The position numbers and the translations under genes were made by a program. From an uncultured Paracoccaceae bacterium (GTDB taxonomy: Bacteria > Pseudomonadota > Alphaproteobacteria > Rhodobacterales > Rhodobacteraceae), in NCBI GenBank assembly GCA_947503175.1, contig CANNCO010000003.1, forward strand, positions 193,501 to 257,500: a DNA stretch of 64,000 nucleotides, written 5' to 3'. Positions 4,274 through 30,927 of the stretch are shown in pieces (position 1 is the first letter of the stretch; every line of letters starts with the position of its first letter). The notes under the pieces were generated by a model. It was given only the letters and a program-made list of their open reading frames with translations. It searched no databases and was not told the origin of the DNA.

Positions 4274-7200
4274 ATGGGCCTTTCCCCCGGCCCCACCGGC
4301 ATCCTGTCCTATTTCACACGTCACAGAACGGCTGCAAACCTGCTGCTGGCAGTGCTTCTGATCCTTGGCGTTGCGGCCTTCCCGAACATGCGGGCGCAGT
4401 TCTTTCCGGATGTGGTCGTCGACAGCGTGTCCGTCTCCGTCAACTGGGACGGTGCTGGCGCCGATGACGTGGATACGGCCATCGTCCAGGTGCTGGAGCC
4501 CGTTCTGATCGGCGTCCCGGGTGTCGAAAGCACATCGGCCACCTCGCGCGAAGGGCGGGCGTCCATCCAGCTCGAGTTCGAACCGGGCTGGGACATGGCC
4601 CGCGCCACGGATGACGTACAATCAGCAGTCGATACGACGACGACACTGCCCGAGGACGCAGACGATCCGACGGTACGGCGCGACGAGTGGCGCGACCGGG
4701 TGACCGACGTGGTCATTACCGGACCGGTGGGCGTCGACCAGCTCGGTCGGTTTGCGGACGAGTTCACGTCCCGGCTTTTTGCCGAAGGCGTCACGCGGAC
4801 GACGATCCGCGGTCTGGTCGCGCCCGAAACGATTATCGAAGTGCCCTCCATCGCGCTGATCCGCCATGACATAACGCTGCGCGAGATTGCGGATGCCGTC
4901 GCCGAAGAAGCCGACGCCGATCCGGCGGGCGATGTAACGGGCACCGCGCGGGTTCGGACGGGCATTGCCAAGCGGACCGCCGAAGACATCGAAGCCATCG
5001 CGTTGCGCACCAACCCGGACGGTTCGACCCTGACCATCCGCGATCTGGCCGAGGTTCGGGTCGAGGGAATCGACCGTGAGCGGGCCTATTTCGTTGGCCC
5101 TGATCCGGCGATCTCGATCCGTGTCGACCGGCCCGTGCAGGGCGATGCGATCGACATTCAGAGCGATGTGGAGCGCGTGGCGTCCGAGTTGGAGCTGACA
5201 TTGCCGCAAGGCGTCCGGATCGATCTGATCCGCACCCGTGCCGAGGCCATTACGGGGCGGCTCAATATCCTTCTGGACAACGGAATGATGGGGCTGGGCC
5301 TTGTTCTTGCACTTCTGTTTCTGTTCCTGAATGCCCGCACCGCGTTCTGGGTCGCAGTCGGCATTCCGGTGGCCATGACTGCCGCCATCGCAATGATGTA
5401 TGCTGCGGGACTGACGCTCAACATGATCTCGCTCTTTGCGCTGATCATCACCCTTGGAATTGTCGTGGACGACGCGATTGTCGTGGGCGAACACGCTGAT
5501 TTCCGGGCCAGACGGCTGGGCGAAGATCCGGTGACCGCTGCCGAAACAGCCGCGAAACGGATGTTCACACCGGTGTTTTCGGCAACCATTACGACGATCA
5601 TCGCCTTTTTCGGTCTTGTTGCCATCGGCGGGCGCTTTGGCGATCTGATCTCGGACATCCCGTTTACGGTGATCGTCGTTCTGGCGGCATCGCTGATCGA
5701 ATGCTTCCTGATCCTGCCCAATCACATGGCCCATTCCATCGCCCATTCGGCCCGCGAGCACTGGTATGACTGGCCGTCGCGGCAGGTGAACAAGGGGTTC
5801 CGCTGGGTCCGTGAGACTCTGTTCCGCCCGTTGATGGCAGGTGTCATACGCGCCCGTTATCCGGTGCTTGCGGGGGCTGTTGTTCTTTTGGCCAGCCAGG
5901 CCGCACTTGTGATCTCAGGCGATGTGCAATGGCGCTTCTTCAACGCGCCCGAACGCGGCTCGGTCAGCGGAAATTTCGCCATGCTTCCCGGCGCAACCCG
6001 CGACGATACGATGGAAATGATGCGCGCGCTTCAGACCGCCGTGGACGAGCTGGGCGAACAATACGAGGCTGAACACGGCCGCAACCCGGTGGATTACGTC
6101 ATCGCCGAGATCGGCGGCGGGACCGGACGCGGTCTGGCCGGGGCCGATACGAAACAGCCTGATCAGCTGGGGTCGATCGCCATTGAACTGATCGATCCCG
6201 ACCTGCGCCCCTATTCGTCGTTCCAGTTCGTTGCGGACCTGCAGGATGCCGCGCCGCGTTTGCCGCTGTTGGAGACGATCAGTTTCCGGGGCTGGCGGTC
6301 CGGACCCGGTGGCGATGCGCTAGAGATCCAGATTTACGGCGCCGATGCAGAGACGCTCAAGGCGGCCGCCGAAGACCTCAAGACGCAGTTGGCGCAATTC
6401 CCGGAAGTGTCCGCGCTGGAAGACAGCCTTGCCTATGACAAGGAGGAGCTGATCCTAGAACTGACGCCCCAGGGACAGGCGCTTGGCTTTACAATTGACG
6501 GGCTGGGGCGGGTGCTGCGCGACCGGCTGAATGGGATCGAAGCGGCGACTTTCCCCGATGGTCCCCGCTCGGCAACGATCCGGGTCGAGCTTCCCGAGGG
6601 CGAACTGACCGCCGATTTTCTGGAGCGCACTCAACTTCGCGCGGGGCCAGGCACCTACGTCCCCCTTGCCGATATCGTCGCGGTTGAAAGCCGCACTGGC
6701 TTCTCGACCGTCCGGCGGGAAAACGGCATTCGTCAGGTCACCGTCTCGGGCGATATCTCCGAGGATAATCCCGCCCGCGCGCAGGCGATCACGGCGGCAC
6801 TGCAGGATACGATCCTGCGCGAGGTGGAGGAAAGCTTTGGGGTGGCGACCTTCATGGCTGGTCTGGCCGAGGACGAGTCGAACTTCCTGTCCGATGCCCT
6901 GAATGGGCTGATCCTGTGTCTGGCGGGTATTTACCTGACGCTTGCATGGGTCTTTTCCAGCTGGACGCGGCCCGTGGTGGTGATGGGGATCATCCCCTTC
7001 GGACTTGTTGGCGCGATCTACGGCCATGCGGTCTGGGACGTGCCGCTTTCGATGTTCTCGGTTGTTGGCCTGATCGGCATGGTCGGCATCATCATCAACG
7101 ACTCGATCGTTCTGGTGACAACCATCGACGAGCATGGAGAGACGCGCGGGCTTTTCCCCGCGATCATCGATGGCGCGGCCGACCGGTTGCGCCCGGTGCT

Positions 7201-28694: not shown

Positions 28695-29417
28695 TCAGAC
28701 GAAAAACTGCGCCCCGTTGGCCGAGATCGTCGAACCGTTGATGAAGCCCGCATCGTCAGACGCAAGAAACACCACGCAACGGGCGATTTCTTCGGGTTCA
28801 CCCAGACGTCCGGCCGGGATCTGACCGATGATGCTCTCGCGCACCTTTTCGGGTACGGCCATCACCATCTCGGTCGCGATATATCCCGGGCAGATCGCGT
28901 TGGCGGTGATCCCGGCCCGCGCGCCTTCCTGTGCCAGCGACTTGACGATCCCCAGATCCCCCGCCTTGGTGGCGGCATAGTTGACCTGAGCGAACTGGCC
29001 CTTCTGACCATTGATCGACGAGATCACGATGACACGCCCGAACTTGCGCTCGCGCATCCCCGGCCAGATCGGGTGCACCGTATTGAACACACCGGTCAGA
29101 TTCGTATCGATCACATCCTTCCACTGGTCCGGCGTCATCTTGTGAAACGGCGCGTCGCGGGTAATGCCGGCATTGGCCACGACAACGTCAATGGGGCCAA
29201 GATCGGCCTCGACCTGTGCGATGCCCGCCGCGCTGGCCTCGTAATCGGCCACGTTCCATTTATAGGTCTTGATCCCGGTTTCGGCGGTAAAGGCCGCGGC
29301 CTTTTCGTCGTTCCCGGCATAGGTGGCCGCGACATCGTATCCTTCGGCCTTCAACGCCTTCGAGATCGCTTCGCCAATTCCGCGCGATCCGCCAGTGACC
29401 AGTGCAACACGTCCCAT
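28695..29417 (-). CDS. phaB: Acetoacetyl-CoA reductase
   Basis: PhaB reduces acetoacetyl-CoA to (R)-3-hydroxybutyryl-CoA with NADPH, the second step of polyhydroxybutyrate synthesis. The 240-residue SDR enzyme has the cofactor loop TGGSRGIGEA (residues 8-17), NAGITRD, and the active site SSINGQKGQFAQVNYAATKAG with the Ser-Tyr-Lys triad. A GGAGGAG ribosome-binding site is present. It follows phaA on the same strand with 95 bases between the genes; no other gene separates them. PHB synthase (phaC) is elsewhere. Confidence 0.95.
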   Translation of the reverse strand: MGRVALVTGGSRGIGEAISKALKAEGYDVAATYAGNDEKAAAFTAETGIKTYKWNVADYEASAAGIAQVEADLGPIDVVVANAGITRDAPFHKMTPDQWKDVIDTNLTGVFNTVHPIWPGMRERKFGRVIVISSINGQKGQFAQVNYAATKAGDLGIVKSLAQEGARAGITANAICPGYIATEMVMAVPEKVRESIIGQIPAGRLGEPEEIARCVVFLASDDAGFINGSTISANGAQFFV

Positions 29418-29512: not shown

Positions 29513-30688
29513 TCACGGACGCTCGACGCACATGGCAACGCCCATGCCGCCGCCGATGCAAAGCGTTGCAAGGCCCTTCTTGGCGTCGCGGCGCTGCATT
29601 TCGAACAGGAGCGTGTTCAGAACCCGGCAGCCGGATGCGCCGATCGGGTGACCGATGGCGATGGCGCCGCCGTTTACGTTCACGATCGCCGGGTCCCAGC
29701 CCATGTCCTTGTTCACGGCGCAGGCCTGAGCCGCGAAGGCTTCGTTCGCTTCGACCAGATCGAGGTCCTCGACCTTCCAACCGGCCTTGTCCAGCGCCTT
29801 GCGGCTGGCATGGATCGGGCCGACCCCCATGATCGACGGGTCCAGACCGGCGGTCGCGTAGGATGCGATACGGGCCATCGGGGCGATGCCACGCTTTTCG
29901 GCTTCGTCCGCGCTCATCAGAAGAACCGCGGCAGCACCGTCGTTCAGGCCCGATGCGTTCGCCGCCGTCACCGAGCCCTCCTTGGTAAAGGCCGGGCGCA
30001 GCTTCTGCATGGCTTCCATGGTTGCGCCGTGGCGGATGTATTCGTCCTTGTCGACGACGATATCGCCTTTGCGCGTCTTGACGGTATAGGCCACGATCTC
30101 GTCGTCGAACTTGCCAGCCTTCTGGGCGGCTTCGGCCTTGTTCTGGCTGGCGACGGCAAACTCGTCTTGCTGATCACGGCTGATCTGCCATTTTTCGGCA
30201 ACGTTTTCAGCGGTCTGACCCATGTGATAGCCGTTGAAGGCATCCCAGAGCCCGTCCTTGATCATCGAGTCGATGTATTTCATGTCGCCCATCTTGTGAC
30301 CGGCGCGCAGGTTCGCGACATGGGGGCTCATGGACATGTTTTCCTGCCCGCCCGCGGCAACGACGGAGGCATCGCCAAGCTGGATGTGCTGGGCACCCAG
30401 CGCCACGGCGCGAAGTCCCGAACCGCAGACCTGATTGATGCCCCAGGCCGCGCTTTCGATGGGCAGGCCCGCGTTGACATGGGCCTGACGCGCCGGGTTC
30501 TGACCCTGACCGGCGGCAAGCACCTGACCGAGGATCGTTTCGGAAACGTCGGATTTTTCAACTCCGGCGCGGGCCACGACGGCCTCGAGTACGGCGGCAC
30601 CAAGGTCATGGGCCGGTACGTTGGCGAAAGATCCTGTAAAGCTTCCCACAGGCGTGCGGGCCGCAGATGCGATTACAACGTTGGTCAT
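29513..30688 (-). CDS. phaA: Acetyl-CoA C-acetyltransferase (beta-ketothiolase)
   Basis: PhaA condenses two acetyl-CoA molecules to acetoacetyl-CoA, the entry to polyhydroxybutyrate, and can run in reverse. The 391-residue thiolase has the nucleophile C88 in [11 protein letters not shown], the NEAFAAQ segment, the [10 protein letters not shown] histidine motif and the second active cysteine in CIGGGMG. It is followed by phaB. Its ribosome-binding site lies inside a hairpin, listed separately, which may control the amount of enzyme made. Confidence 0.96.
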
Positions 30689-30696
30689 TTATGTCT

Positions 30697-30731
30697 CTCC
30701 TCTCCCAAACGGGCATGGTTTGGGAGAGGAG
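30697..30731 (-). promoter_or_regulatory. Hairpin burying the phaA ribosome-binding site
   Basis: On the minus strand the sequence ahead of phaA is CTCCTCTCCCAAAC, loop CATGCCC, then GTTTGGGAGAGGAG. This is a perfect 14-bp stem with a 7-nt loop. The 3' arm ends in GAGAGGAG, the Shine-Dalgarno sequence, followed by AGACATAA and the ATG, a spacing of 8 bases. In the folded mRNA the Shine-Dalgarno would be fully paired with the 5' arm. An RNA or protein factor, temperature, or translation events could open it. Confidence 0.7.
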
Positions 30732-30927
30732 TTGATTGACGTCGGTCCCCGCCCTTTTCCAGCCGACTCCTAGGGTTTGCGGGCGCTGAGGGCAACAGTC
30801 AGGGTGTCTCAGGGTAAGGGAAATGCCGCTCCTGCGGGAGCGCACGCTGGCGAAACCGGTTTTTAAGATTTCGTCTCAAAGGCCTATCGAGGATTGCAAA
30901 TGATGCATTCCCGTCTTGCGCATCGGC

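Follow-up and report, generated by a model that had tools for sequence, protein, structure and literature searches.

Why should the gene that starts PHB synthesis carry its Shine-Dalgarno sequence (SD) inside a perfect stem? The question is raised by a locus in an uncultured Paracoccaceae bacterium, which we analysed within a 64,000-nucleotide stretch of its genome (the window). Since a thiolase gene is here followed by a short-chain reductase gene, the two were named phaA and phaB, the second name being a probable one that draws on family and position. A gene encoding an EAL-domain protein lies upstream of phaA on the same strand. The genes and the parts of the hairpin are as follows.

29513..30688, minus strand: phaA, acetyl-CoA acetyltransferase, 391 aa (Thiolase_N, 1.3e-103; Thiolase_C, 2.8e-52).
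28695..29417, minus strand: probable phaB, a phaB-like acetoacetyl-CoA reductase of 240 aa, downstream of phaA (adh_short families).
30731-30718, minus strand: 5' arm of the hairpin, CTCCTCTCCCAAAC, a perfect arm of 14 nt.
30717-30711, minus strand: loop of the hairpin, CATGCCC, 7 nt, holding an out-of-frame ATG.
30710-30697, minus strand: 3' arm of the hairpin, GTTTGGGAGAGGAG, also called segment C, holding the SD (AGGAG, 30701-30697).
Between the 3' arm and the phaA ATG (30688-30686), minus strand: spacer, AGACATAA.

An inverted-repeat search with arms at most 40 nt apart returned two arms that are 100% complementary over 14 nt with 7 nt between them, confirming the exact 14-bp stem and 7-nt loop that an earlier note on this DNA had described (30697-30710/30718-30731, minus strand). 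As that note had claimed, the SD lies inside the 3' arm, 8 nt ahead of the phaA ATG, and both the sequence and the predicted fold place it within a stable stem that would hide it; folded alone, the hairpin has a predicted energy of -24.6 kcal/mol. Judging from these folding models, the SD hairpin is likely to form in the phaA mRNA. The second ATG noticed in the loop is present as well, 28 nt ahead of the phaA ATG, out of frame and with no SD preceding it. A translation start at this loop ATG was rejected, as it is out of frame with phaA. A leader peptide was disfavoured too: the frame whose stop codon overlaps the phaA ATG, inspected by eye, has no ATG, GTG or TTG between the predicted transcription start and the hairpin.

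Amongst perfect inverted repeats with arms at most 40 nt apart, none in the window is longer than the phaA hairpin, and the next has 11 bp. Within a 464-kb sample of the genome, made up of 20 stretches of 20 kb together with the window, there are four perfect hairpins of at least 14 bp with loops of 3-20 nt, the phaA hairpin included. A stem of this length is thus rare but not unique, and the unusual part is its position on an SD. The predicted cost of opening the SD at phaA, 12.5 kcal/mol, ranks first amongst 124 start sites drawn from the same 464 kb by strict ORF and SD filters, which make these a sample in which some starts may be wrong; ranks two and three follow closely, at 12.1 and 12.0 kcal/mol. 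These two near-equal sites lie at L159:6497 (+) and L175:14632 (+) of the same genome. A search of the whole 4.0-Mb genome found the arm 14-mer without mismatch at the two arms only, and a dispersed repeat was rejected for want of any further exact copy. Other repeats were noted along the way. Similar inverted repeats, GGAACAATGAA..TTCATTGTTCC, recur at L164:4098-4140 and L170:19859-19897; their flanks are alike too, and they may form a small family of repeats in this genome. L177 has perfect hairpins of 16 bp (6206-6241) and 14 bp (5860-5900) with approximately 300 nt between them.

A transcription start past the 5' arm had been named in the earlier note as a finding that would speak against the hairpin. 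By prediction this does not apply, as a conserved promoter (30795-30767) lies upstream of that arm, with the following elements.

30790..30795, minus strand: predicted -35 element, TTGCCC; relatives have this motif at a similar distance.
30767..30772, minus strand: predicted -10 element, TAGGAG, at a 17-nt spacing from TTGCCC, the motif being found in relatives.

Transcription of phaA would then start near 30761-30758, some 30 nt ahead of the hairpin's 5' arm, and since the promoter is predicted upstream of this arm, both arms of the hairpin should be transcribed. A TTGC-N17-TA promoter with a score of at least 11 was found in 240/247 phaA leaders, as compared with 178/247 of the same leaders shuffled once, and in 215 of the 240 the -10 element fell in the bins covering -120 to -70 relative to the ATG, the shuffled ones being spread out. 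The predicted phaA leader in Rhodobacteraceae measures about 80 nt (median 79 nt across 84 leaders), and a G-rich stretch follows soon after the predicted start in the 86 promoter-anchored leaders (the promoter filter retained 86 of 126 leaders, and later tests used 84, then 82). In six relatives (L009, L014, L027, L084, L210 and L341) the phaA promoter overlaps a TTGCCGC..TGCGGCA-like palindrome, which we take to resemble a PhaR operator; this palindrome is degenerate in the window (30767-30795).

Compensatory changes that maintain the stem had been expected to support the hairpin, and relatives lacking it to count against it. The hairpin sequence was not kept in 80 named relatives or in the further relatives' genomes compared. 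A congener (L003) has no such SD stem at phaA, and a relative whose PhaA is 95% identical (L006) has an SD-covering hairpin at the same place, but an imperfect one. We collected 247 distinct phaA leaders, of which five had no recognisable SD, leaving 242 in which perfect SD stems could be sought. The longest have 14 bp in the window, 9 bp in L085 and 8 bp in L369, L355 and L237, with at most 7 bp in the others, so that not one of the 241 leaders other than the window's own exceeds 9 bp. The hairpin as such is therefore lacking in relatives, the closest of the compared leaders belonging to phaA genes that are at most about 86% identical to this one at the DNA level. A second genus, represented by Cognatishimia sp. 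MH4019 and two relatives (L085, L184 and L186), keeps an SD-covering hairpin with 9, 5 and 7 perfect pairs, respectively, written in different letters. Nor were compensatory changes in the hairpin borne out; the covariation that relatives do display belongs to another stem, which joins a segment A with a segment B.

Before turning to this stem, we consider how far the SD of phaA is occluded across the Rhodobacteraceae. Folds were compared with 30-50 shuffles and duplexes with 100, the family sets holding about one species per genus; duplicates were removed from the leader sets, L141 and L340 were left out as having no start, and both the family and the genus statistics ignore kinship. When the last 45 nt before the gene were folded, SD opening cost at least 6 kcal/mol in 42/199 phaA leaders, against 20.6 ± 4.0 after dinucleotide shuffling, and in 26/126 against 12.3 ± 3.1 when about one phaA leader was taken per genus. 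The same fold gave 0/108 against 6.8 in shuffles for phaB (found in 108 of 122 cases), a depletion for argH (1/43 against 5.0; an argH start was obtained in 43 of 70 cases, the window's own being amongst the 27 lost) and a neutral result for the genome's own start sites (15/124 against 13.0), which with a 60 nt + 4 fold rose above shuffles at 8 kcal/mol (10/124 against 4.2 ± 1.9). Within the last 45 nt of phaA leaders an anti-SD segment, B, complements the SD above chance, which is not so in phaB or argH. Perfect stems of at least 5 bp over the SD are in weak excess (19/122 against 13.3 ± 3.4). Whole predicted leaders, 84 in number, have no excess of SD occlusion (2.54 against 2.72 ± 0.16), and for 118 leaders, folded over 70 nt together with 20 nt of the gene, its rank histogram was flat. 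The A:B stem, to which we now turn, suggests a reason for the missing excess in whole leaders.

The stem that does covary, P1, joins segment A, which is rich in G and lies towards the 5' end of the leader, to segment B, a pyrimidine stretch immediately ahead of the SD. It was defined on 50 leaders, nearly all from one Sulfitobacter-type genus (G056; 58 genomes searched, 54 with phaA); the set comprises 50 of the 51 distinct genus leaders, including two named Sulfitobacter (L043 and L084), and a 49-leader set omits L043. The genus-set consensus reads AGAAGGCGGGGGAGTCG in the A region and TCCTCTGCCA in the B region, and the 50 leaders have a majority consensus for A and the adjoining flank, for B, and for the SD and start; the stretch joining A to B varies. 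P1 has a covariation score of 0.391, as against 0.287 ± 0.018, with 0 of 500 shuffles scoring as high. There are 32 doubly changed cells where 14.6 are expected, the score falls in six of six slid versions of the pairing, and a repeat without the SD part on the 49-leader set gave 0.407 against 0.298 ± 0.017. RNAalifold, unaided, recovers the same stem, with double changes at 7/8 pairs. The signal extends across genera, where A:B pairing ranks amongst the lowest 10% of shuffles in 28/84 leaders (8.4 expected), as compared with 9/108 for phaB and 14/124 for own start sites, for which a fixed window from -80 to -62 stands in for A. Native A:B pairs are also stronger than swapped partners across genera (-14.69 against -12.20 ± 0.42). 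We regard it as very likely that the A:B stem is real. One leader of this genus shares all of its last 60 nt with the leader of Sulfitobacter sp. DFL-14 (L063), and one genome of the genus has two phaA copies (L337 and L391).

Does B also pair with the SD? By the counts used for P1 there is no B:SD covariation in the genus leaders, and RNAalifold found no structure in their last 42 nt. Trimmed to the last 45 nt, leaders nonetheless exceed their shuffles in SD occlusion in 18/82 cases across the family (6.4 ± 2.4 expected) and in 17/45 within the genus (2.5 ± 1.6), and the native 5' part lowers this occlusion more than a shuffled 5' part does (P = 2e-4 for the 82 family leaders and 1.4e-7 for the 45 genus leaders). 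When 5' halves were swapped between species, B:SD pairing of at least 8 kcal/mol was found across the family in 14 native leaders against 4.9 ± 1.9, or in 9 against 5.4 ± 2.2, depending on the split point; within the genus the picture was less clear, with mean values of 5.00 against 4.20 ± 0.32 or 4.67 against 4.34 ± 0.28. Leaders in which A:B and B:SD both beat shuffles number 7 where 5.7 are expected, so the two coincide no more than by chance. The relief of occlusion by the 5' part is how a translational switch would look, with B as the anti-SD and A as the anti-anti-SD, the effect of A being a computed one.

The window's own leader can be placed in this family picture by way of the following elements.

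30746..30754, minus strand: segment A, GGGCGGGGA, part of the G-rich stretch with which the leader begins; a possible partner of B.
30722..30730, minus strand: segment B, UCCUCUCCC, able to pair with A at 8/9 positions or, within the 5' arm, with the SD arm.
Within the loop segment 30711..30717, minus strand: CCAUGCCC, a second candidate partner for A, according to the R1 alignment.
30683..30758, minus strand: match to R1, the leader model from the Sulfitobacter-type genus.

The 5' arm of the hairpin carries the family B motif, TCCTCTCCCA, at 9/10 positions. In the 4.0-Mb genome R1 has one match up to an E-value of 5, and this is the phaA leader (25.2 bits, E 0.07, from scoring 150 of the 981 candidates of the first look); in 98 loci, 38/38 matches up to the same E-value end at phaA starts. 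R1 includes the SD and ATGACC, both of which help its matches, and R2 is the model without SD and start codon. R2 is weak: in the 98 loci only 2/21 of its hits lie within a phaA leader (L046 and the window) and 19/21 lie elsewhere. In the 2.3-kb window locus its top score is at the leader (14.2 bits, the next being 6.7), and in 76 further loci, which consist mostly of leader, it has two hits up to an E-value of 1 (L196 and L241), both in the leader. The E-values of both models are rough, owing to a short calibration, and the partner chosen for A in the window differs between them. In folds of the growing transcript, the window leader pairs A with B at lengths of 40-55 nt and adopts the perfect hairpin once it has reached 60 nt; with the 3' arm held open it reaches -13.1 kcal/mol, as against -31.1. 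The window's A:B pairing is no better than that of shuffles (0.74 of which are as good), and A does not free the SD, the cost of opening it being 10.9 for the whole leader, 11.9 for the last 45 nt and 10.2 with the 5' part shuffled. In the window, therefore, the balance appears to be tipped towards the closed state.

The explanation that we favour for the hairpin, and to which we give roughly even weight for and against, is that the phaA leader of Rhodobacteraceae is structured and works as a switch in which A:B and B:SD exclude each other; the hairpin would be its SD-side half, and in the window the switch would be tipped closed. In such a leader, A at the start of the transcript would pair with B ahead of the SD to form P1, as covariation in one genus and the family-wide tests indicate. 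P1 would free the SD; were it lost, B, being SD-complementary, would cover the SD, as the folding tests suggest, and the partner taken by B would set the level of phaA translation. In the window's lineage, B and the SD arm would have become perfectly complementary over 14 bp. The nascent leader is predicted still to be able to make P1 and the complete leader to go over to the closed hairpin. Because the finished leader is predicted to be closed, phaA translation is expected to be low, unless ribosomes load early or P1 is maintained or re-formed by a helicase, a small RNA or a protein. That the leader is switched in a regulatory manner seems to us, on these models, an even prospect at best and perhaps a somewhat poorer one. 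We advance only tentatively, as an idea more doubtful than probable, the wider proposal that an undescribed family of cis-regulatory leader RNAs controls PHB synthesis in Rhodobacteraceae through a signal-driven choice between A:B (open) and B:SD (closed), window-like lineages having been tipped closed by perfecting B:SD. The suggestion of the earlier note that phaA is controlled at translation thus remains plausible, given an SD within a stem and the B:SD excess, but its conserved basis would be the A:B stem and not the hairpin.

Other readings account for parts of this evidence. P1 alone might be functional, for example as a 5' stem that stabilises the mRNA or as a binding site for a protein, with B:SD pairing a by-product of an SD-like A and with no switch; covariation in A:B with none in B:SD fits this, as does the lack of excess SD occlusion in whole leaders. 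Yet native B:SD pairing exceeds swapped pairing across the family by both ways of splitting the leader, phaB and argH avoid an occlusion that phaA does not avoid, and long perfect B:SD stems occur in two lineages (9 bp in L085 and 14 bp in the window), and we consider this reading unlikely. The perfect stem may instead be a recent accident, in which template switching during replication perfected an imperfect repeat and the effect was tolerated rather than selected. Template switching is reported to create RNA hairpins (PMC8794818), and 14/14 Watson-Crick pairs are what copying one arm off the other should give; the stem's absence in the congener and the imperfect SD hairpin at the same place in L006 point the same way. 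Against this, the 5' arm, with its 9/10 fit to the B motif, is probably not new, and the compared relatives are too distant (phaA DNA at most about 86% identical) for the event to be reconstructed. An accident of this kind is rather improbable as a full explanation; it is compatible with the leader switch that we favour, as the origin of the stem.

A role in transcription has a stable, GC-containing stem in its favour, together with a perfect inverted repeat whose arm centres lie 21 bp apart: the hairpin might be a U-less ('I-shaped') terminator or attenuator, or an operator acting at the DNA level. A classical intrinsic terminator was rejected, as no U run follows the stem; termination was kept as a rival because transcripts of another alphaproteobacterium, Methylosinus sporium, are reported to end commonly at strong stems that no U run follows (PMC12403871). 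The hairpin has no T run after it on either side, it sits on the phaA SD, it is not repeated exactly elsewhere in the genome, it falls after the predicted start and not over the promoter, and relatives keep an RNA stem of a different kind (A:B), all of which makes such a role very unlikely. We find it slightly more improbable still that temperature, or a protein of the CsrA/RsmA type, turns phaA translation on and off through the hairpin in the manner of known SD hairpins; temperature and an RNA-binding protein were amongst the triggers that the earlier note had put forward. In favour of such a switch, the SD is in a stem, and a similar hairpin, opened by ArrF, has been proposed for Azotobacter phbR (PMC8401924). 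However, the predicted probability of an open SD is only about 5e-8 at 42 °C and 3e-7 at 50 °C, no CsrA candidate was found in this genome by a search that was positive in 3/14 control genomes, and the window has no Rfam match at gathering score, thermometer families included.

Rfam likewise gave no match at gathering score in four relatives, and none in their phaA leaders. In the open literature searched we recognised no description of the phaA leader element; subscription papers are mostly absent from it, so an earlier description is possible. As phaA starts PHB synthesis, a conserved leader, if true, would add a translational level of control at the entry step of carbon storage in a large family, and it would help to explain why the SD of a core gene is buried by 11-12 kcal/mol. 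The window's variant would be a natural example of a two-state RNA in which one half has been pushed to the extreme.

RNA thermometers of the ROSE and fourU types hold the SD in a stem, as the phaA hairpin does, but its perfect stem is not predicted to open at physiological temperature. Translational riboswitch and attenuator platforms use three segments, the middle one pairing either with the first or with the SD. The phaA leader is like them in having three segments, with B pairing with A or with the SD; it differs in that no conserved ligand-binding core was seen and no Rfam match was obtained. For PHB genes, the control described in the consulted parts of PMC8401924, PMC9049629 and PMC12559287 involves transcription factors, trans-acting small RNAs and the phbR SD hairpin, and a structured phaA leader is described in none of them. 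The nearest case amongst these is that of Azotobacter vinelandii, in which a predicted SD hairpin is proposed to block translation of phbR until it is opened by the small RNA ArrF (PMC8401924). In both leaders a PHB gene has its SD in a predicted hairpin; the phbR case differs in concerning a regulator gene, a gammaproteobacterium and an iron-responsive small RNA, and the text of PMC8401924 used here describes no A:B stem. The small RNAs MmgR and alphaR8 act on PHB in alphaproteobacteria, the target named in the available portions of PMC9049629 and PMC12559287 being phasin. They resemble the phaA leader in exerting RNA control over PHB storage and in having an anti-SD-like motif, but, as described there, they act in trans and on phasin, whereas the anti-SD segment of phaA lies within the mRNA itself.
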